Assembly: GCA_007135505.1 (NCBI GenBank)
Contig: SLIS01000215.1
Span: 1 to 6,412, forward strand
Direction: 5' to 3'
Length of the DNA stretch: 6,412 nucleotides
Origin: Halovivax sp.
GTDB lineage: Archaea > Halobacteriota > Halobacteria > Halobacteriales > Natrialbaceae
Shown: one piece after another, positions 1-6,412 of the stretch
Numbering within the stretch: the stretch's first letter is position 1
Layout of the letters: each line of letters starts with the position of its first letter
Made by a program: the position numbers and the translations under genes
Notes under the pieces: generated by a model
Told to the model about the DNA's origin: nothing
The model's database searches: none
The model's input: the letters and a program-made list of their open reading frames with translations, nothing else

Positions 1-829
1 ACAGCCCCTTGTACGTCGCGGCACGCTCGGAATATCCCGGTTCGATCGGGGCGTGATCGGAATAGCGCTCCCGAAGAAGCGATCGGAGCCGCTCCCGTTC
101 GGCCCGCGGAAACCGGAAGCGATCGACGAATCGGACTTCGGCGCGGGCGAGCGCGTAGCCGGCGTGCGTGACGTGGGCGTTTCCCCAGTCCAGAATCGCG
201 GTGATGGCACCGGCGTCGGTGACGAGGAGGTTACCCGGGTGGAAGTCGCCGTGGGTCAACACCGGCCGGCGGTCCGCACTCGGCGGCGGGATCACGGACG
301 ATTCGAGTGTGCCACGGTGCAGGCTGCCGTTGAATCCGTCGGATCGACACACGCCAACGGCGTCGCCGATCCGTTCGAGGCCACCGATCCGATCGGTCCG
401 GTGAGCTGCGTGGAGTCGGCCGAGCGCCCCGGCCGCGTCGGACACGAGTCGGCGGCGAACGCCGGGATCCGCCGTCCGGTACCACGGATCGGGGTTCGAG
501 CCGTCGCGATACTCGTACAATGCCCAACGCGAGGTTCGTCCGTTCGGTTCGTCGCGAATCGATCCCGTCGCGAGGACGTCGGGAACCCGCAGGTCCGTCG
601 TCCCGTCGACCAGCTGGACAACGAACGGTTCGATCACGTCGCCGGTCCAGACGCTCGCCCCATCGATCTTGCACACGGCTCGTGACGGCGCCCCATCGAG
701 TTCGAGGAGGAACGTCTCGGCGACCGAGCCGACGGCCGGGCGTCGGTACCGAACGATCGTCGCATCCAGCGCGGTCGATACGATCCGTTCGACGCACAGC
801 GGTGTCGTCGGTTCCTCGTCGTGGGTCAT
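1..829 (-). CDS. APH/choline-kinase-fold phosphotransferase, C-terminus cut by window edge
   Basis: This minus-strand reading frame starts at the ATG at 829-827 and stays open to the window edge, giving 276 residues with no stop. It has the hallmarks of the aminoglycoside phosphotransferase/choline kinase fold (PF01636 type): a putative nucleotide-binding lysine (K54, in VCKID), the catalytic loop LTHGDFHPGNLLV (H193, D195, N200), and the metal-binding aspartate D214 in AILDWGNAH. A helix with GRLHAAHR at 137-144 precedes the catalytic loop, as is usual. The family moves the ATP gamma-phosphate to a hydroxyl of a small molecule; the substrate here cannot be read from the sequence, and antibiotic resistance should not be assumed. 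The protein has no signal peptide and is presumably cytoplasmic. It is transcribed away from the FkbM-type gene, with 70 bases between the two starts. The family is near certain; the substrate and any link to the pterin-like cluster are open. Confidence 0.88.
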   Translation of the reverse strand, partial: MTHDEEPTTPLCVERIVSTALDATIVRYRRPAVGSVAETFLLELDGAPSRAVCKIDGASVWTGDVIEPFVVQLVDGTTDLRVPDVLATGSIRDEPNGRTSRWALYEYRDGSNPDPWYRTADPGVRRRLVSDAAGALGRLHAAHRTDRIGGLERIGDAVGVCRSDGFNGSLHRGTLESSVIPPPSADRRPVLTHGDFHPGNLLVTDAGAITAILDWGNAHVTHAGYALARAEVRFVDRFRFPRAERERLRSLLRERYSDHAPIEPGYSERAATYKGL

Positions 830-869
830 GGTCGTGTTCACCGCGTCGCCGTCACACCGTAGCACAACA

Positions 870-893
870 CCCAACAGTGACGTCAGCGTTGGG
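870..893. promoter_or_regulatory. Imperfect 24-base palindrome between divergent genes (candidate operator)
   Basis: The arms CCCAAC (870-875) and GTTGGG (888-893) share one centre with the perfect 8-base palindrome TGACGTCA (878-885). Only the two base pairs between arm and core (876/887 and 877/886) fail to match, so 20 of 24 positions are symmetrical. It lies 6 bases before the ATG at 900 and 41 bases before the ATG of the divergent phosphotransferase. A dimeric regulator could reach both promoters from here. It could instead act as a hairpin in the messenger. No protein that would bind it is visible in the window. Confidence 0.4.
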
Positions 894-899
894 GGCGGT

Positions 900-1703
900 A
901 TGCGGAGTAGATCGATCCGGGACGGTGTTCGCGACCGGCTCCGCGGGCTGAGACGCCGCGGCTACTACAGCAGCAGACGGCTTGTTCTCGGCGGATACTA
1001 CCGACTGGTACACCTGAACTACGAACGCCAGTGGATCGCACCGCGAAAGCGAACGCCGGCCGGGACCGTCCGGAGTTACGAACTCTACAACCGCCACGGT
1101 CGAGACGCGATGCTCGCCGAACTCGACGGGCACTGCGATCACGACGCGGTCGTCTTCGACGTCGGCGCGAACGTCGGCGTCTACGCCCTGGCACTCGCCG
1201 CGGGGCGCCCGGATCGACGCGTCGTGGCATTCGAGCCGGCACCGCCCGTCGCCGACCAGCTACGGGCCAACGTTCGGCTGAACGACCTCGAGGACCGGAT
1301 CGACGTCCGGCCTACCGGCCTCGGTGACGAAGCGGGCGACCGTCCGTTCTACGTCTCGACCTACACGGAACTCTCCGCATTCGACCGCGAGAGCGCGAGC
1401 CGGTGGGAGGCGTCCGTCGCCGACGTGTGTCCGGTTCCAGTCGAGCGACTCGACGCCGTCGTCGAGGCGGGCCCGACGCCGGACGTCGTCAAGATCGACG
1501 TCGAAGGGGCCGCCCCGGCGGTACTGCGGGGTGGCCGAGAGACGCTGACGACGCACCGACCGACGGTGTTTCTCGAGATCCACGAGAAGGGACTCGACGG
1601 CGACGAACCCGACGAGTGTCGAGAAACCCTCACCGACATCGGGTACGGCGTCCGCGACCGCGGCGACTACTGGCTGGCCGAACCACTCGAATCCGATCGC
1701 TGA
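900..1703 (+). CDS. FkbM-family SAM-dependent methyltransferase
   Basis: This encodes 267 residues and is probably an O-methyltransferase using S-adenosylmethionine. The SAM-binding motif I is FDVGANVG (86-93), followed by the ribose-contacting acidic residue E112 in AFEPAP. The FkbM signature VKIDVEGAAPAVLRGG sits at 197-212, with FLEIHEKG at 224-231 after it. The N-terminal 45 residues are strongly basic with many Arg and Tyr (RLRGLRRRGYYSSRR) and may contact a membrane or polyanion; there is no convincing membrane helix. The frame stays open upstream to an ATG at 669, but that part overlaps the divergent phosphotransferase gene and reads as shadow sequence, so the ATG at 900 is chosen. A GGGGGCGGT just before it is at best a weak ribosome-binding site. 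FkbM enzymes often methylate sugars or polyketides; the acceptor here is unknown. The following gene is 124 bases away and has its own putative promoter. Confidence 0.88.
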   Translation: MRSRSIRDGVRDRLRGLRRRGYYSSRRLVLGGYYRLVHLNYERQWIAPRKRTPAGTVRSYELYNRHGRDAMLAELDGHCDHDAVVFDVGANVGVYALALAAGRPDRRVVAFEPAPPVADQLRANVRLNDLEDRIDVRPTGLGDEAGDRPFYVSTYTELSAFDRESASRWEASVADVCPVPVERLDAVVEAGPTPDVVKIDVEGAAPAVLRGGRETLTTHRPTVFLEIHEKGLDGDEPDECRETLTDIGYGVRDRGDYWLAEPLESDR

Positions 1704-1789
1704 GGGGTCCACCGTCGAATCGAGAGCGAGCGACTGGACTGGCCAGCGCGACGGACCGGACAAGCCGATCAAAGCCGGGCGTGAACGAC

Positions 1790-1804
1790 CGAAAGACGTT
1801 TTTT
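1790..1804 (+). promoter_or_regulatory. Putative archaeal BRE/TATA promoter for a leaderless transcript
   Basis: A CGAAA (1790-1794), resembling the haloarchaeal TFB-recognition element, is followed by a run of six T (1799-1804). The centre of the T run is about 27 bases before the ATG at 1828, which would place the transcription start at or next to the start codon. The surroundings are GC-rich, so the box stands out. The same T run could also end transcription from the FkbM gene, and both roles are possible together. Confidence 0.5.
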
Positions 1805-1827
1805 CAATTCCGACGAACTGTAACGAT

Positions 1828-2211
1828 ATGAGTCGGGCCGAGCGGCTGCGAGTCCCGGGACTTTCCCCGCTGCAGTGGCTCGCGATCGCGCTCGTCGTCC
1901 TCACCGGCGGGATACACCTCGGCCTCGGCATCGCGTTCCTGCCGGATCCGCTGGCGATCGCGTTCGTTCTCGCCGGACTCGGCTTCGCCGGTGCGCTCGT
2001 CCTCTTCGTACTGGACGTCCGTCGACGATTGCTGTACCTGGTCGGAATCCCGTTCGTCGGCGCCCAGATCGTCCTCTGGTACGCGCTCAGTAGACCGACC
2101 GGCGCCGGCGACGTCTCGATCGGCGCCGCCATCGACAAGTTCGCACAACTCCTGTTGATCGTCGTCCTCGTCGTCCTCTATCGACGAAGTCGACGACCCG
2201 AACGGACGTGA
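1828..2211 (+). CDS. Small four-helix membrane protein, haloarchaeal conserved family
   Basis: This encodes 127 residues with four predicted membrane helices at about 15-38, 42-63, 68-87 and 100-118. A short basic N-terminus (MSRAERLR) precedes them, and an Arg-rich tail (YRRSRRPERT) suggests a cytoplasmic C-terminus. Features that look like conserved family signatures are TGGIHLGLG (26-34), FLPDPL (37-42), GIPFVGAQIVLWY (73-85) and AIDKFAQ (101-107). From memory this resembles a small haloarchaeal membrane family of unknown function (possibly the one called DUF7475; not checked). No enzymatic motif is visible. Its TGA overlaps the GTG start of the phosphatidyltransferase gene by four bases, so the two are very likely translated together, and a role as a partner or helper of that enzyme is a reasonable inference. 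The open frame, the promoter and the good family match make the gene itself secure. Confidence 0.82.
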   Translation: MSRAERLRVPGLSPLQWLAIALVVLTGGIHLGLGIAFLPDPLAIAFVLAGLGFAGALVLFVLDVRRRLLYLVGIPFVGAQIVLWYALSRPTGAGDVSIGAAIDKFAQLLLIVVLVVLYRRSRRPERT

Positions 2212-3032
2212 CGATCGTGCACTGGAATAGACGAAAGACGTGGTCCGTGGGCCTGCTCCGGCGGTTTGTGGCGACCATCCTCGGCACCGGCCTCCTCGCC
2301 GGAGCGGGGACGCTCGTCGTCGGCGTATACTGGCCGGCCGTTGTCACCAGCGAGTTCCTCGCGTGGGTGGCGCTGGTCCTCGGCTGTGAGTTGCTCGTCG
2401 TCGGGGCGGTGATCGAGCGTGCACACGGCCGCCGTGACGTCGAACGCATCACGGCGGCCTCGTGGATTACACTTGCCCGAGCGGTCGCGCTGGCGCTACT
2501 GGTCGGCGTGCTCGTCGCGGGCTCACCGTCGCGGACGGTCGGGTGGGTGTCGAGTGCGTTCTTCGCAGTCGCCGTCCTCCTCGACGGCGTCGACGGCCTC
2601 GTCGCCCGCCTCACGGGGACCGTCACGGCGCTCGGCAGCCGCCTCGACGCCGAAATTGACGGACTCACGACGCTCGTCGGCGCGGCGGCGGCCGTCGGTA
2701 CGGGTGCCGCGTCGCTTCCCTTCCTCGCCGTCGGCGTCGCACGATACGCCTTCGTCGGCAGCCTCTGGTGGCGACGGCGTCGCGGCCGTTCGGTCCGGGA
2801 GTTGTCCTCGAGCCGGCTTCGAACCGGACTTTCCGCGCTCCTCCTTGTCACGATCTGGCTCGCCCTCTTGCCGACGACGGACGATGCCCGCACGACGCTA
2901 CTCACGACGGCCATGGCGATTCCCTTCCTGTGTCACTTCGGCTGGGACTGGTTGAGAGCCACCATGCGCGTCGGCCCCCCGCGCGGAGGGGGTGACGGGG
3001 ACAGTGTGAGGGACACGCAAACACCCAAGTAG
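2208..3032 (+). CDS. CDP-alcohol phosphatidyltransferase family membrane enzyme
   Basis: This integral membrane protein of 274 residues should move a phospho-alcohol group from a CDP-linked donor to an acceptor alcohol, releasing CMP. The family signature D-x2-D-G-x2-A-R-x8-G-x3-D-x3-D is complete: D126, D129, G130, A133, R134, G143, D147 and D151. These aspartates bind the two metal ions and act as catalytic base in characterised members. The helix before it carries the usual ITLAR element (WITLARA, 86-92). Hydrophobic segments lie at about 22-43, 51-68, 83-104, 110-127, 153-178, 207-222 and 230-245, followed by a polar tail. The GTG start at 2208 overlaps the previous stop (GTGA), implying coupled translation. 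Members make archaetidylserine, archaetidylglycerol or archaetidylinositol phosphates; the alcohol used here cannot be told. The gene lies next to a pterin-like cluster, so an unusual acceptor is possible. Confidence 0.9.
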   Translation: MTIVHWNRRKTWSVGLLRRFVATILGTGLLAGAGTLVVGVYWPAVVTSEFLAWVALVLGCELLVVGAVIERAHGRRDVERITAASWITLARAVALALLVGVLVAGSPSRTVGWVSSAFFAVAVLLDGVDGLVARLTGTVTALGSRLDAEIDGLTTLVGAAAAVGTGAASLPFLAVGVARYAFVGSLWWRRRRGRSVRELSSSRLRTGLSALLLVTIWLALLPTTDDARTTLLTTAMAIPFLCHFGWDWLRATMRVGPPRGGGDGDSVRDTQTPK

Positions 3033-3033
3033 G

Positions 3034-3041
3034 TTCATATT
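3034..3041 (+). promoter_or_regulatory. Weak TATA-like box upstream of the dehydrogenase gene
   Basis: TTCATATT is the only AT-rich octamer in the 101-base gap between the phosphatidyltransferase and dehydrogenase genes. If it works as a TATA box, transcription would start near 3063, inside the second copy of the direct repeat listed next. That would give a leader of about 70 bases, which fits the presence of a Shine-Dalgarno sequence before the ATG at 3134. No clear BRE is visible, since the box begins right after the upstream stop codon. Confidence 0.3.
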
Positions 3042-3068
3042 GACCGGACAGCTATCGTGACCGGACAG
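3041..3068. repeat. Two direct repeats of TGACCGGACAG, 17 bases apart
   Basis: The 11-base unit TGACCGGACAG occurs at 3041-3051 and exactly again at 3058-3068. The bases after each copy are also alike (CTATCG and TATCG). The period of 17 bases is not a whole number of helical turns but suits a pair of regulator sites. The repeats sit just downstream of the TATA-like box and over the expected transcription start, where a bound protein would block transcription. They lie in the gap after the phosphatidyltransferase stop codon, so they are not explained by coding. Confidence 0.5.
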
Positions 3069-3121
3069 TATCGACTCGAGCGAGCCCTCCTCCCGCGGAT
3101 TTGCTCGCCCGTCGGGCCGAC

Positions 3122-3129
3122 GGAGGGTG
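3122..3129 (+). promoter_or_regulatory. Shine-Dalgarno sequence that fixes the dehydrogenase start
   Basis: GGAGGGTG matches the archaeal consensus GGAGGTGA closely and ends four bases before the ATG at 3134. It supports that ATG over the in-frame TTG at 3101. Many haloarchaeal messengers are leaderless, so a strong site here implies a real untranslated leader. Confidence 0.65.
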
Positions 3130-3133
3130 CGCG

Positions 3134-4165
3134 ATGACGGCGCGACGAGTCGTGTTCACCGACGCCCGGTCGGTCGAAATCGAGCGCTACGCGACGCCTG
3201 ACCCCGACCCGAGCGAGGTCCGGGTTCGAACGCGCTCGTCGGCGATCAGTGCCGGCACGGAGGGGCTGCTCTATCGGGGCGACGCCCCCGACGACCTCGC
3301 GGCGGACGAGGCGATCGACGCCCTGGCGGGCGACTGCACCTTCCCGATCGCGTACGGCTACGCCGCCGTCGGGCGGGTGGCCGCCGTGGGCCGCGAGGTC
3401 GACGACGAGTGGCTCGGCCGGCGCGTGTTCGCCTACAACCCACACGAGAGTCACTTCCTCGCCGACCCGACCGCCCTCGTTCCAGTCCCCGATCGCGTCT
3501 CGACCCGGACGGCGACGCTCTTCGCCAACGCCGAGAGTGCGGTCTCGTTCCTGCTCGACGGCGAACCCCGGATCGGCGAGTGCGTCGCCGTCCACGGACA
3601 GGGCGTCGTCGGCCTGCTGACGACTGCGTTACTCGCCCGGACCCCCATCGAGACGCTCGTCACGGTCGATCGGTACGAGAGTCGCCGATCGCTATCGCGA
3701 TCGTTCGGCGCCGATCGGTCGATCGAACCGGCGTCCACCGATTCGTCGGGAACGGACGACGTCGCGTCGGAATTCGAGGCGATCGCCGGGCGGCGAGCCG
3801 ACCTGACGTACGAACTCTCGGGCAGCCCCGAGGCCCTCGAGGCCGCGATCGCGACGACCGGGTTCGACGGGCGCGTAATCGTCGGATCGTGGTACGGCGA
3901 CAGGCCGGTGACCGCCGATCTCGGCGGCCGGTTCCACCGGGATCGGATCGACGTCCGCTCGAGCCAGGTGAGTACGATCGCACCCCGTCATCGGGGTCGC
4001 TGGTCCCGCGACCGCCGCCACGAAATTACCTGGCGCTGGCTCGAGCGACTCGACCTCGATGACGTGTTCACCCACGAGTTCTCCGTAGAGCGGGCGGCCG
4101 ACGCGTATCGACTCCTCGAGGAACGACCCGACGAGGCGGTCGGGGTATCGTTGTCCTACGAGTGA
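3134..4165 (+). CDS. MDR-superfamily dehydrogenase lacking the canonical zinc ligands
   Basis: This encodes 343 residues, a normal length for medium-chain dehydrogenases/reductases. The N-terminal GroES-like domain spans about 1-125 and the Rossmann domain begins near 148. The nucleotide-binding loop is HGQGVVG (154-160); D179 at the end of the second strand suggests a preference for NAD. Where zinc alcohol dehydrogenases have the catalytic Cys this protein has SAGTEG (39-44), and where they have GHE it has YGYAAVG (74-80). The four-Cys structural zinc site is absent, and the only cysteines are C68 and C150. The SAGTE motif and ANAESAVSF (131-139) recall BchC-like dehydrogenases and the 'zinc-binding dehydrogenases' found beside PTPS paralogues. 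The ATG at 3134 is chosen for its Shine-Dalgarno sequence. The PTPS homologue follows after 49 bases, so the substrate is probably an intermediate of that cluster. The oxidoreductase fold is secure; the substrate is unknown. Confidence 0.88.
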   Translation: MTARRVVFTDARSVEIERYATPDPDPSEVRVRTRSSAISAGTEGLLYRGDAPDDLAADEAIDALAGDCTFPIAYGYAAVGRVAAVGREVDDEWLGRRVFAYNPHESHFLADPTALVPVPDRVSTRTATLFANAESAVSFLLDGEPRIGECVAVHGQGVVGLLTTALLARTPIETLVTVDRYESRRSLSRSFGADRSIEPASTDSSGTDDVASEFEAIAGRRADLTYELSGSPEALEAAIATTGFDGRVIVGSWYGDRPVTADLGGRFHRDRIDVRSSQVSTIAPRHRGRWSRDRRHEITWRWLERLDLDDVFTHEFSVERAADAYRLLEERPDEAVGVSLSYE

Positions 4166-4184
4166 GGCGCGACGCGGCCGATTC

Positions 4185-4189
4185 TTTAT
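4185..4189 (+). promoter_or_regulatory. Putative TATA box for the PTPS homologue
   Basis: TTTAT in an ATTCTTTATC context is centred 28 bases before the ATG at 4215, the spacing expected for a leaderless haloarchaeal transcript. The 49-base gap is otherwise mixed in sequence and has no Shine-Dalgarno site before that ATG. This suggests that the PTPS, glycosyltransferase and methyltransferase genes can be transcribed separately from the dehydrogenase gene. Confidence 0.5.
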
Positions 4190-4214
4190 CAGGTTAGTCA
4201 CACTACGTGGAATC

Positions 4215-4598
4215 ATGTACGAGGTTTCGGTCACCCGGTCGTTCGTCGCCCAGCACGCCCTCACCGTGGCGAAGGCCGGGCCCGAGGGGAGGGTCCACTC
4301 ACACCAGTACACGGTCGAGGTGACGTTCTCGGGACCGACGCTCGACGAGCAGGGATACCTCGTCGACATCGACGAGCTGACGGAGGCACTCGACGGGCTG
4401 GTCGCTCACTTTAGCGATCGAACGCTCAACGAACTCGAGCCGTTCGAGGGGCTGAACCCCAGCGTCGAGCACTTCTCGAGGATTTTCGGCGACCGACTGC
4501 TCGCGACCCTCGAACCCGAGCCGGCGACCGAACTTCGGGTCTCGATGAGCGAAGACGACGTCGCCCGCGTCGCCCACGAGCGCCGACTCGAGGAGTGA
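4215..4598 (+). CDS. Divergent 6-pyruvoyl-tetrahydropterin synthase (PTPS/QueD) homologue
   Basis: This encodes 127 residues, the usual length of a T-fold PTPS/QueD protein. The three zinc-binding histidines are present: H14 (VAQHAL) and H28 and H30 (VHSHQY, in place of the usual HGHxY). Other family landmarks are YLVDIDEL (48-55), TLNEL (70-74) and NPSVEHFSRI (81-90). Compared by eye with E. coli QueD, the catalytic Cys four residues before H28 is E24, and the Asp-His of the LDH motif is S67-D68. The pterin-anchoring Glu aligns with M111 or, with a small shift, E113. It is thus unlikely to make 6-pyruvoyl- or 6-carboxy-tetrahydropterin by the known mechanism. No QueC or QueE gene is near, which argues against archaeosine synthesis. 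From memory, Streptomyces SCO6650 is a PTPS-fold protein that has likewise lost the triad. A pterin-like or pyrimidine substrate is inferred from the fold. Confidence 0.87.
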   Translation: MYEVSVTRSFVAQHALTVAKAGPEGRVHSHQYTVEVTFSGPTLDEQGYLVDIDELTEALDGLVAHFSDRTLNELEPFEGLNPSVEHFSRIFGDRLLATLEPEPATELRVSMSEDDVARVAHERRLEE

Positions 4599-4599
4599 G

Positions 4600-5745
4600 A
4601 TGGACGTCGGACTCGTCGTCTACGGTGGCCTCGATCGGACCTCCGGCGGGTTTCGGTACGACAGGAAGCTCGTCTCGGCGCTCGAAGCACGGGGTGACGA
4701 GGTCGACGTCGTTTCGATCCCCTGGCGAACGTACCCGCGACACCTCGCAGACGGCCTGTCCAGGTCGCTCCGATCGAGGCTGAATCAGCCGTACGACGTC
4801 CTCCTCCAGGACGAACTCTGTCACCCGTCGCTCTGGCGGCACAACCGACACCTGGACCGACCGAAAGCGGTCGTCTCGATCGTCCACCTGCTCCGATCCG
4901 GCCCGACGAGCGGCCCGACTCGGCCCCTGTACCGTGCGATCGAACGCCGGTACCTCGAATCGGTCGATGCGGCGGTCTGTACGAGCCACGATACGCACGA
5001 TCGGACGCGGACACTCGCCGACCTGCCGACGCTCGTCGCACCGCCGTCGGGTCGCGTCGAGGGGGCAGCACACTCGCCGAAACGGGTGGAAAGCCGAGCA
5101 CGTGGCGGACGGCTCCGGGCCGTGTTCGTCGGGAACCTGCTCCCGCGAAAGGGAGTTCGAACGCTCCTGTCGGCGCTCGCACGGACCGACCGACAGGTCG
5201 AGTTGACCGTCGTCGGGAGTCACGAGGGAGACCCGGAATACGCTCGCTCGGCGCGTGCGGATGCTTACGATCTCGGAATCGCCGACCGCGTCGCGTTCAC
5301 GGGCGAGGTTCCGTCCGGGGAACTCGATCGGCTGCTGGCACGATCGCACGTACTCGCGGTACCGGCCAGCTACGAAGGGTTCGGAATGGTCTACCTGGAG
5401 GCGATGGAGTACGGCGTAGTTCCGATCGCCAGCGCCGTCGGCGGAGCGAGCGAAATCGTCGAGCACGGGCGGAATGGCTTCCTCGTCGAACCGGACGATC
5501 CGGACGAAATCGCGTCGATCCTATCGGCGCTGACCGCAGACCGCGACGCGCTCGCCCGACTCGGCACGAACGCACTCGAGACGGCTGCCCGGCATCCGAC
5601 CTGGGCGGTGACGATGGGACGCGTTCGATCGTTCCTCCGGACGGTGGTCGACGACGCGAGCGAGGGGACGAGAACCGACTCCCTCGCTGGGGGCGCGTCG
5701 AGCGCGAACGCCGAGACGGGTCGAGAGCGGGGTGACTCGGCGTGA
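4600..5745 (+). CDS. GT4-type (GT-B fold) glycosyltransferase
   Basis: This encodes 381 residues. The N-terminal acceptor half starts MDVGLVVYGGLDRTSGGF, with the glycine-rich loop common in GT4 enzymes near 15-19. The C-terminal donor half starts near 172 with AVFVGNLLPRKG (174-185), where R183 and K184 should contact donor phosphate. The E-x7-E motif is E259 to E267 (EGFGMVYLE), followed by GGASEIVEHGRNGFLV (281-296). It should be a retaining enzyme using a nucleotide sugar. There is no membrane helix. Residues 351-381 form a Gly, Ser and Glu-rich tail, probably disordered. The ATG lies one base after the PTPS stop with AGGAG at 4591-4595 as ribosome-binding site, and the stop overlaps the next start. 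This tight coupling suggests that it glycosylates the product of the PTPS-like enzyme, as a distinct pterin glycosyltransferase does for biopterin in cyanobacteria. Donor and acceptor are not known. Confidence 0.9.
   Translation: MDVGLVVYGGLDRTSGGFRYDRKLVSALEARGDEVDVVSIPWRTYPRHLADGLSRSLRSRLNQPYDVLLQDELCHPSLWRHNRHLDRPKAVVSIVHLLRSGPTSGPTRPLYRAIERRYLESVDAAVCTSHDTHDRTRTLADLPTLVAPPSGRVEGAAHSPKRVESRARGGRLRAVFVGNLLPRKGVRTLLSALARTDRQVELTVVGSHEGDPEYARSARADAYDLGIADRVAFTGEVPSGELDRLLARSHVLAVPASYEGFGMVYLEAMEYGVVPIASAVGGASEIVEHGRNGFLVEPDDPDEIASILSALTADRDALARLGTNALETAARHPTWAVTMGRVRSFLRTVVDDASEGTRTDSLAGGASSANAETGRERGDSA
5729..5735 (+). promoter_or_regulatory. Shine-Dalgarno sequence inside the glycosyltransferase gene
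   Basis: GGGGTGA lies six bases before the GTG at 5742 and differs from the consensus GGAGGTGA only slightly. It supports that GTG as the start of the methyltransferase, which has no in-frame ATG until residue 55, inside motif I. Confidence 0.5.
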
Positions 5746-6412
5746 CGGACTCGTTCCAGACGTACCTCGCGGCGAAGCGAGCCGTCGACGATCGGGCGCT
5801 GAGTCGCCGCGTCTGGGCGACCTTCGTCGACGAACTCGAGGCCCTCGGAGCGTCGAGGGACGGTCCCGTCAGGATCCTCGAGATCGGCGGCGGCGTCGGG
5901 ACGATGGTCGCGAGACTCGCCGACCGGGCGGCCCTGCCCACGTCGGTCCGCTACCGGCTGATCGACCGCGACGGGGAGAACGTCGCATTCGCGCGAGCGA
6001 ACCTCCCCGGATGGCTCGAGGACGCCGGTTATTCCACCGAGCGGACACCGACCGGACTAGTGGCTCGTGCGGACGCCGTAACGGACGACGACGGCGAACG
6101 CGTCGTCAGTGACGAACCGGGTGGCGAGTGCAGGGAACGGACGGACGAGCGCGGAGCGGGGACGGCCCGGCGGACGCTCGAGATTTCGCTCGAAACCGGC
6201 GACGCCCTCTCGGTAGCGAACGGGACTGGTGGCGCAGCTTCCGCGTCCGGGGGAACTGGCGAGGCGTCGGCCGGCCACGGGTTCGACGAGGCCGGGACCA
6301 GCGCTGACGTCGTCATCGCCGCGGCCGTCGTCGACGTCCTCGATGAGGCGCGACTGGTCGACTGGCTCCGGTCGACCCTCGGCGAGGGCGGGCTATTCTA
6401 TGCGCCGATCAC
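5742..6412 (+). CDS. Class I SAM-dependent methyltransferase, C-terminus cut by window edge
   Basis: The frame opens at GTG 5742, overlapping the glycosyltransferase stop as GTGA, and stays open for 223 residues to the window edge. SAM-binding motif I is ILEIGGGVGTM (45-55), followed by the acidic D75 in RLIDRDGE that would hold the SAM ribose. TGDAL (152-156) fits the adenine-contacting position, and ADVVIAAAVVDVLDE (188-202) fits the strand-4 region. GEGGLFYAPI (214-223) fits the strand-5 turn, so the core fold is nearly complete and probably only the last strands are missing. Two hydrophilic low-complexity stretches, about 104-143 (acidic, Arg-rich) and 159-186 (Gly, Ala, Ser-rich), enlarge the usual spacing between these motifs. 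It most likely methylates the product of the PTPS-like/glycosyltransferase steps. It is not related in motif detail to the FkbM enzyme upstream, so the region carries two methyltransferases of different families. Confidence 0.85.
   Translation, partial: MTDSFQTYLAAKRAVDDRALSRRVWATFVDELEALGASRDGPVRILEIGGGVGTMVARLADRAALPTSVRYRLIDRDGENVAFARANLPGWLEDAGYSTERTPTGLVARADAVTDDDGERVVSDEPGGECRERTDERGAGTARRTLEISLETGDALSVANGTGGAASASGGTGEASAGHGFDEAGTSADVVIAAAVVDVLDEARLVDWLRSTLGEGGLFYAPI

Follow-up and report, generated by a model that had tools for sequence, protein, structure and literature searches.

A conserved gene set around a divergent PTPS homologue in Halobacteria and on bacterial plasmids suggests a pterin-type pathway from GTP

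The gene cluster analysed here is built around a divergent PTPS homologue and lies in a 6,412-nucleotide stretch of Halovivax sp. DNA (assembly GCA_007135505.1, contig SLIS01000215.1, positions 1 to 6,412 of the forward strand). We refer to this whole stretch as the window; it is probably the entire contig. Four core genes follow each other head to tail on the plus strand, coding for a medium-chain dehydrogenase/reductase (MDR), the PTPS homologue, a family 4 glycosyltransferase (GT4) and a class I S-adenosylmethionine (SAM) methyltransferase. A preliminary description of this DNA had placed them in one direction with intergenic gaps of 49, 1 and -4 bases, and the list of open reading frames (ORFs), the Pfam matches and the fold comparisons bear this out. 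The CDP-alcohol phosphatidyltransferase gene that it had reported just upstream is also present and ends 101 bases before the MDR gene. This gene and the adjoining gene for a DUF7475 protein lie outside the part of the window to which the pathway had been assigned; both are found repeatedly alongside the cluster and are probably part of it.

Protein families were assigned by Pfam and NCBIfam model scans of the eight window proteins (Table 1). The MDR reading frame is already open from 3101, and the gene is taken as 3134-4165. For the methyltransferase, which runs off the window's end and matches its Pfam family below cut-off, we modelled a full-length relative (L001:11628-12578, pLDDT 94), whose fold matches class I methyltransferases. 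As only general members of this class were returned, the fold gives no clue to the substrate. The closest named relative of the window PTPS in a protein database search belongs to Halovivax gelatinilyticus (73% identity), and the Halovivax locus nearest to the window, L098, contains the same eight genes in identical order.

Table 1. Features of the window, with position, strand and the evidence for each assignment.
Feature	Position	Strand	Evidence
DUF7475 small membrane protein	1828..2211	+	Pfam PF24287, E 1.1e-11
CDP-alcohol phosphatidyltransferase	2208..3032	+	Pfam PF01066, E 8.5e-13
MDR dehydrogenase, BchC-like group	3134..4165	+	Pfam PF00107 (ADH_zinc_N), E 9.4e-10
PTPS homologue (COG0720, T-fold)	4215..4598	+	Pfam PF01242, E 1e-23
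GT4 glycosyltransferase	4600..5745	+	PF00534 (Glycos_transf_1), E 4.5e-37
Class I SAM methyltransferase	5742..6412, open at window's end	+	Methyltransf_12, E 8e-4, below cut-off; fold of a relative
FkbM-family methyltransferase, possible accessory	900..1703	+	TIGR01444, E 1.6e-31
APH-family kinase gene, cut by window's end	2-829	-	Pfam scan

We surveyed 391 genomes of the class Halobacteria by profile searches with PTPS and MDR. The PTPS profile gave 251 matches at E <= 1e-5, of which the 17 weakest (worse than 1e-11) were dropped to leave 234 genomes, and the MDR profile matched 232 genomes at E <= 1e-60. Both genes are found together in 231 genomes, PTPS alone in 3, MDR alone in 1 and neither in 156 (Fisher p 1.5e-105, calculated over genomes that are not independent). 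With a stricter MDR limit, which leaves the seven weakest of the 232 matches (1e-64 to 1e-106) uncounted, 225 genomes have both genes, 9 have PTPS only and 0 have MDR only. Gene neighbourhoods were compared in 64 haloarchaeal loci, a non-random set of four loci from a genome scan with the window PTPS and 60 chosen among the high-scoring matches listed. Within 6 kb of PTPS, MDR is found in 57 of these loci, the methyltransferase in 55, the CDP-alcohol transferase in 38, DUF7475 in 32, GT4 in 28 and ArfA in 21. MDR is the nearest recognised gene before PTPS in 51/64 loci, and all five of MDR, PTPS, GT4, methyltransferase and CDP-alcohol transferase share one strand in 14/64; the orientation of DUF7475 relative to the cluster varies. 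Another, divergent GT4-like gene is present in 14 of the 37 loci that lack a GT4 gene on the PTPS strand (e.g. L076, at -5264 from PTPS), and a gene in a similar position in L122 matches Glycos_transf_1.

Bacteria were sampled via plasmid records only; the genome scan with the window PTPS returned haloarchaeal or Omnitrophota loci. We examined 14 of 16 bacterial MDR records, all except H73 and H82, the latter a further one from Methylosinus; weaker MDR matches such as H58 and H65, a partial MDR match (H114) and several Rhizobium PTPS matches fall outside this set. MDR-PTPS pairs occur on plasmids of Streptomyces, Microbacterium, Arthrobacter, Rhizobium and relatives, Methylosinus, Rhodobacterales and Thiodictyon. 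In all 14 loci PTPS adjoins MDR, in 12 GT4 directly follows PTPS and in 13 the methyltransferase is present, so that the order MDR-PTPS-(GT4)-methyltransferase recurs on bacterial plasmids. Further genes in these loci code for RibD-family proteins (11), a CDP-alcohol transferase (9), RibA (8), an LPG_synthase_TM-like protein (8, two of them confirmed by Pfam), sulfatase-like proteins (6), cytochrome b561 (6), FkbM (5) and creatininase (2). The sulfatase-like proteins are named by annotation or similarity, and the only one scanned had no Pfam family at 1e-5. Two bacterial representatives share 32-35% identity with the window MDR and 25% with the window PTPS. Since the gene order is conserved in two domains and PTPS and MDR co-occur almost perfectly, the linkage is far beyond chance; close homologues scattered and unlinked in most genomes, which the preliminary description had named as speaking against a pathway, are not what we see.

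The PTPS homologue has lost the catalytic triad of its family while keeping the residue that anchors the pterin. When the sites were tabulated for 69 haloarchaeal and 14 bacterial proteins, the pterin-anchoring Glu85 proved invariant (69/69 and 14/14). The residue four positions ahead of the HxH motif, the catalytic Cys in QueD, is Glu24 in 69/69 haloarchaeal sequences and Ala in 14/14 bacterial ones. The Asp-His pair of the triad is absent from both groups and is mostly aligned with Arg-Asp in haloarchaea and with Asn-Tyr in bacteria. At the three zinc-ligand positions, the haloarchaeal proteins retain His14 (69/69), His28 (67/69) and His30 (69/69). This loss of the Cys-Asp-His triad despite the conserved Glu argues that the protein is neither QueD nor a classical PTPS. 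With QueD (PTPS-I), PTPS-II and PTPS-III of COG0720 it shares the T-fold and the anchoring Glu and, in the haloarchaeal form, the His ligands; it differs from them in the missing Cys, the replaced Asp-His and scores below the model cut-offs. The QueD model TIGR03367 reaches 49.1 bits on the window PTPS, compared to a cut-off of 89.25.

Public records annotate the cluster PTPS as 6-carboxytetrahydropterin synthase, and one could regard it simply as the QueD of archaeosine synthesis or as a folate-type PTPS-III with incidental neighbours. Glu at the Cys position is part of the definition of PTPS-III and fits Glu24, but this definition includes a retained Asp-His, which is absent here. The Haloquadratum genomes G003 and G004 hold this PTPS alone, and one of the 64 loci, L074, has QueE- and QueC-like genes close by (L074:5532-6898). 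On the other hand, G001 and G002 encode a further PTPS in which the Cys is retained, the cluster PTPS is patchy and tied to MDR, and its neighbours are conserved across domains. The gene context of QueD differs from that of the cluster in all loci examined except L074; no clear QueC or QueE was found in the other 63 haloarchaeal loci, where L093 and L097 have weak QueE-like matches, or in the 14 bacterial loci. The absence of QueC, QueE and folate genes, as claimed in the preliminary description, thus holds for the window, whose eight proteins match none of them, and for QueC and QueE it fails in the relative L074; folate genes were searched in the window only. With the triad lost, the model score low and the context different, we set both identities aside and consider such a role extremely improbable. 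We suggest that the queuosine-related name in public records is wrong for these genes.

The AlphaFold model of the window PTPS (pLDDT 96) has SCO6650 (PDB 3d7j), a Streptomyces coelicolor PTPS homologue of unassigned function, as its best fold match with a TM-score of 0.89, and SCO6650 also ranks first when solved structures are searched by sequence (E 6.5e-19). The structure alignments took in 30 of the 53 PTPS relatives listed and 40 of the 120 methyltransferases listed. The link to SCO6650 drawn in the preliminary description is thereby substantiated, and a locus on a Streptomyces fungicidicus plasmid (L104) carries MDR-PTPS-GT4-methyltransferase together with a CDP-alcohol transferase, a creatininase and ribA. 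The triad is lost in SCO6650 as well, whereas the haloarchaeal form keeps the zinc-ligand His and has Glu at the Cys position. With His30 kept, the haloarchaeal proteins represent a sister subgroup of the SCO6650 group and not the same form. In a tree of 54 sequences, which includes 29 of the 69 haloarchaeal ones, the haloarchaeal proteins form a single group (99/99), the bacterial proteins together with lone copies form another (98/98), and both join as sister groups at 96/88, apart from QueD. The lone copies are SCO6650-like and have lost the same sites (L108:9001-9399, L109:9001-9426 and L124:6001-6399); the partial MDR match H114 lies on the same plasmid as L124, some 39 kb apart. The Omnitrophota PTPS of L006 has the triad residues Cys, Asp and His in place and branches beside the cluster group, and it may resemble the ancestor of this group.

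The preliminary description had suggested looking to the right of the window for a GTP cyclohydrolase of RibA or ArfA type and a creatininase/ArfB-like gene. Ring-opening enzymes do accompany the cluster, ArfA in 21/64 haloarchaeal and RibA in 8/14 bacterial loci. ArfA stands directly before MDR in 20 of its 21 loci and lies between the CDP-alcohol transferase and MDR in 6. No GTP cyclohydrolase gene lies to the right in the nearest relative, L098, in which the methyltransferase is followed by a prepilin-peptidase gene. A creatininase was found in 2/14 bacterial loci, both from Streptomyces. ArfA as such is present in 385/391 haloarchaeal genomes, as expected for riboflavin synthesis. At least two ArfA matches occur in 55/391 genomes, a count read off the table, where fragments may be included as matches. 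The cluster PTPS is present in 48 of the 55 (p 2.8e-6); the seven genomes without it are G091, G115, G161, G170, G239, G292 and G331. Among the 21 genomes with ArfA at the locus, 14 have at least two matches (both of them weak in G274) and 7 have one.

In RibA, the position of E. coli Tyr105 is Met in the two loci that also hold a creatininase; it is Tyr in the six others, which are proteobacterial and show none. Met at this position reportedly makes SCO6655, a GTP cyclohydrolase II homologue encoded near SCO6650, stop at the formylamino pyrimidine (FAPy). A product of this type would need a deformylase. ArfB belongs to the creatininase family, and the Streptomyces creatininase scores best with MftE (141 bits, cut-off 172) and weakly with ArfB (37 bits, cut-off 180), so that its assignment as deformylase is a putative one. 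The RibD proteins consist of the reductase domain only in the three of 11 that were scanned (RibD_C by Pfam in L113 and L105, the reductase part of the RibD model in L107). These three would not be expected to deaminate their substrate towards a lumazine-type ring.

The cluster thus shares the ring-opening enzymes and the reductase family with the riboflavin pathway (ArfA/ArfB/ArfC, RibA/RibD), and differs from it in the RibD proteins without a deaminase domain and in its patchy distribution. It could be proposed that the cluster contributes steps still lacking from riboflavin or F420 synthesis in archaea, given that the archaeal route to riboflavin is only partly accounted for and that ArfA is part of about a third of the loci. 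A passage in PMC8305020 lists riboflavin auxotrophy for the deletion of HVO_1284 (arfA). With ArfA in nearly all genomes and the cluster PTPS in 234/391, the cluster looks dispensable for riboflavin. Moreover, the ArfA in cluster genomes is often a second copy, and the bacterial clusters often have their own RibA and RibD-family reductase. We set this reading aside as very improbable.

Among 78 MDR sequences from both domains, S36, S39, GTE41-43, PH103-104, ETA134-136 and H268/R271 are conserved at 93% or more. The weak relatives of the MDR in the PDB are mainly polyol, butanediol and threonine dehydrogenases, enzymes that oxidise secondary alcohols. BchC-type dehydrogenases, in which the GTE motif is also present, give the longest NCBIfam match of the window MDR and the best one of bacterial MDR; the window protein stays far below cut-off for both the BchC (62.4 bits, cut-off 291.25) and the Tdh model. 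For the CDP-alcohol transferase, the active-site motif of CDP-alcohol phosphatidyltransferases, D..DG..AR.8G...D...D, is intact in the window and in 49/50 copies overall, and the one exception seems cut at its start.

From gene content, order, co-occurrence and the pattern of lost and kept residues, we propose a dedicated pathway in Halobacteria, Actinomycetota and Proteobacteria that would convert GTP to a glycosylated, methylated product whose core is of pterin type (2-amino-4-oxo, not deaminated). We assign this reading a probability of roughly 0.6. All reactions are predicted, those of steps 3 to 5 with the least certainty. In step 1, GTP would be opened as in riboflavin synthesis, by ArfA, by a Met-type RibA with the creatininase as deformylase, or by a Tyr-type RibA, to yield 2,5-diamino-6-ribosylamino-4(3H)-pyrimidinone 5'-phosphate. 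In step 2, the RibD-family reductase lacking a deaminase domain would form the ribityl derivative, a role perhaps taken in haloarchaea by ArfC of the riboflavin pathway. In step 3, MDR may oxidise a side-chain hydroxyl, most simply at C2', to the ketone formed by Amadori rearrangement in the GTP cyclohydrolase I reaction. Ring closure by the 5-amino group to a dihydropterin, which is chemically natural, could follow. In step 4, PTPS would bind the 2-amino-4-oxo ring via Glu85, with the zinc site kept in haloarchaea, and assist ring closure or side-chain reshaping by a chemistry other than the Cys/Asp/His chemistry of QueD. As PTPS is a T-fold relative of GTP cyclohydrolase I and retains the zinc site in haloarchaea, it would be a fitting partner for ring closure. 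In step 5, GT4 and the methyltransferase would decorate the product, and the CDP-alcohol transferase may form a phosphodiester, perhaps to a lipid. The interpretation in the preliminary description of a core that is oxidised or reduced, glycosylated and methylated is supported in this form, with the pterin core, the oxidation and the sugar and methyl groups predicted from sequence.

Several observations weigh against this proposal. Zinc ligand His30 is Ala in all 14 bacterial PTPS, and for this reason the haloarchaeal and bacterial proteins may not catalyse the same step; the node at which both PTPS clades meet connects long branches, according to a warning of the tree program. The MDR lacks the usual catalytic-zinc Cys and has Ser/Ala and the GTE motif where Cys is expected, and its weak matches in the PDB extend mostly over the cofactor part. 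At the level of the loci, 36/64 haloarchaeal cases lack a GT4 gene within 6 kb of PTPS, and 43/64 are without ArfA; L098 and L001, which are closest to the window, belong to the latter. A search of the 64 haloarchaeal stretches for the bacterial RibD and creatininase had no match at E 1e-4, which means that steps 1 and 2 would there rest on genes elsewhere. In L074, which holds ArfA, PTPS and GT4, the QueC/QueE-like genes lie no more than about 3 kb from PTPS and MDR some 34 kb away. Finally, the lone bacterial-type PTPS copies on three Streptomyces plasmids stand outside any such cluster.

The riboflavin-like early genes and the loss of the zinc ligand and triad in bacterial PTPS would also suit a different secondary metabolite made from GTP, one in which no pterin ring is formed from the pyrimidine, for example a modified pyrimidine, a lumazine or a flavin analogue. 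Against such a product stand the RibD proteins scanned without deaminase domain, the absence of an annotated lumazine synthase from the bacterial stretches viewed and the invariant pterin-anchoring Glu, and we regard it as possible though not probable. The later genes allow a different emphasis. CDP-alcohol transferase, GT4 and methyltransferase could make a membrane glycophospholipid as the main product, for which PTPS and MDR would only provide an unusual head group. The intact CDP-alcohol transferase motif, the LPG_synthase_TM-like and sulfatase-like proteins of the bacterial loci and the DUF7475 membrane protein in half of the haloarchaeal loci are consistent with this. However, the CDP-alcohol transferase is not found within 6 kb in 26/64 haloarchaeal and is missing from 5/14 bacterial loci, whereas MDR, PTPS and methyltransferase mostly persist. 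We consider a lipid as main product rather unlikely; it may also be the same pathway seen from its lipid end and not a true rival.

Returning to the proposed pterin-type pathway, its most far-reaching version is a pterin route shared between domains that bypasses GTP cyclohydrolase I and ends in a glycosylated, methylated and lipid-anchored pterin cofactor, pigment or surface molecule; we think this full version unlikely. Cyanobacteria make their pterin core via GTP cyclohydrolase I, unlike the route proposed for the cluster. Pteridine glycosides combine a pterin core with a sugar, as known from cyanobacteria and from Sulfolobus (solfapterin), and cyanopterin, a glycoside with a 4-O-methyl sugar, carries a methyl group on the sugar in addition (PMC3546692). 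Such a compound would need a glycosyltransferase and a methyltransferase. The haloarchaeal product, or its soluble form, may correspond to the charged halopterins. These compounds, phosphohalopterin and sulfohalopterin, were reportedly described from haloarchaea in the literature of the 1980s, and we know of no account of their biosynthesis. Searches of open-licence papers with combined gene names of the cluster found none on this set, which may still be described in print elsewhere; a search for SCO6650 and SCO6655 led to a paper that names only SCO6655, and the halopterin names led to the one cited for solfapterin.

About 60% of the sampled haloarchaeal genomes (234/391) carry the set, as do streptomycetes, rhizobia and other bacteria, and its order has been kept over a seemingly old divergence. 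This suggests an as yet undescribed cofactor, pigment or lipid-linked molecule derived from GTP. To our knowledge, SCO6650 and SCO6655 have no known pathway, and our comparison supplies a pathway context for them, predicts the reactions and offers knock-out targets in culturable haloarchaea and streptomycetes.

Some features of the loci are more restricted. The FkbM gene of the window is placed alike in L098 and lies within 6 kb of PTPS in just 3/64 haloarchaeal loci; a relative of the APH-family kinase is found near the cluster in L098 only. A promoter and terminator scan of the window found none, with bacterial consensus sequences that have little meaning in archaea. A Gfo/Idh/MocA-type oxidoreductase occurs in 15 of 65 loci, the window included, upstream on the PTPS strand in 14 and on the other strand in 1. 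In many loci this protein has about 650 amino acids, with an aldo-keto-reductase-like part, recognised by eye, after the oxidoreductase part (in L072 at -5416 from PTPS); in L122 it is annotated with 449 amino acids. In the rhizobial loci L113 (3459-6109), L114 and L119-L121, the cluster has two flanking genes, one for an LPG_synthase_TM protein and one named sulfatase by annotation or match. A PfkB-type sugar kinase lies beside the cluster in two Rhodobacterales (L107:6834-7754, L115:10960-11850), and an MdoH-type membrane glucosyltransferase adjoins MDR in Methylosinus and Neorhizobium (L105:6079-7881, L116:6082-7995).

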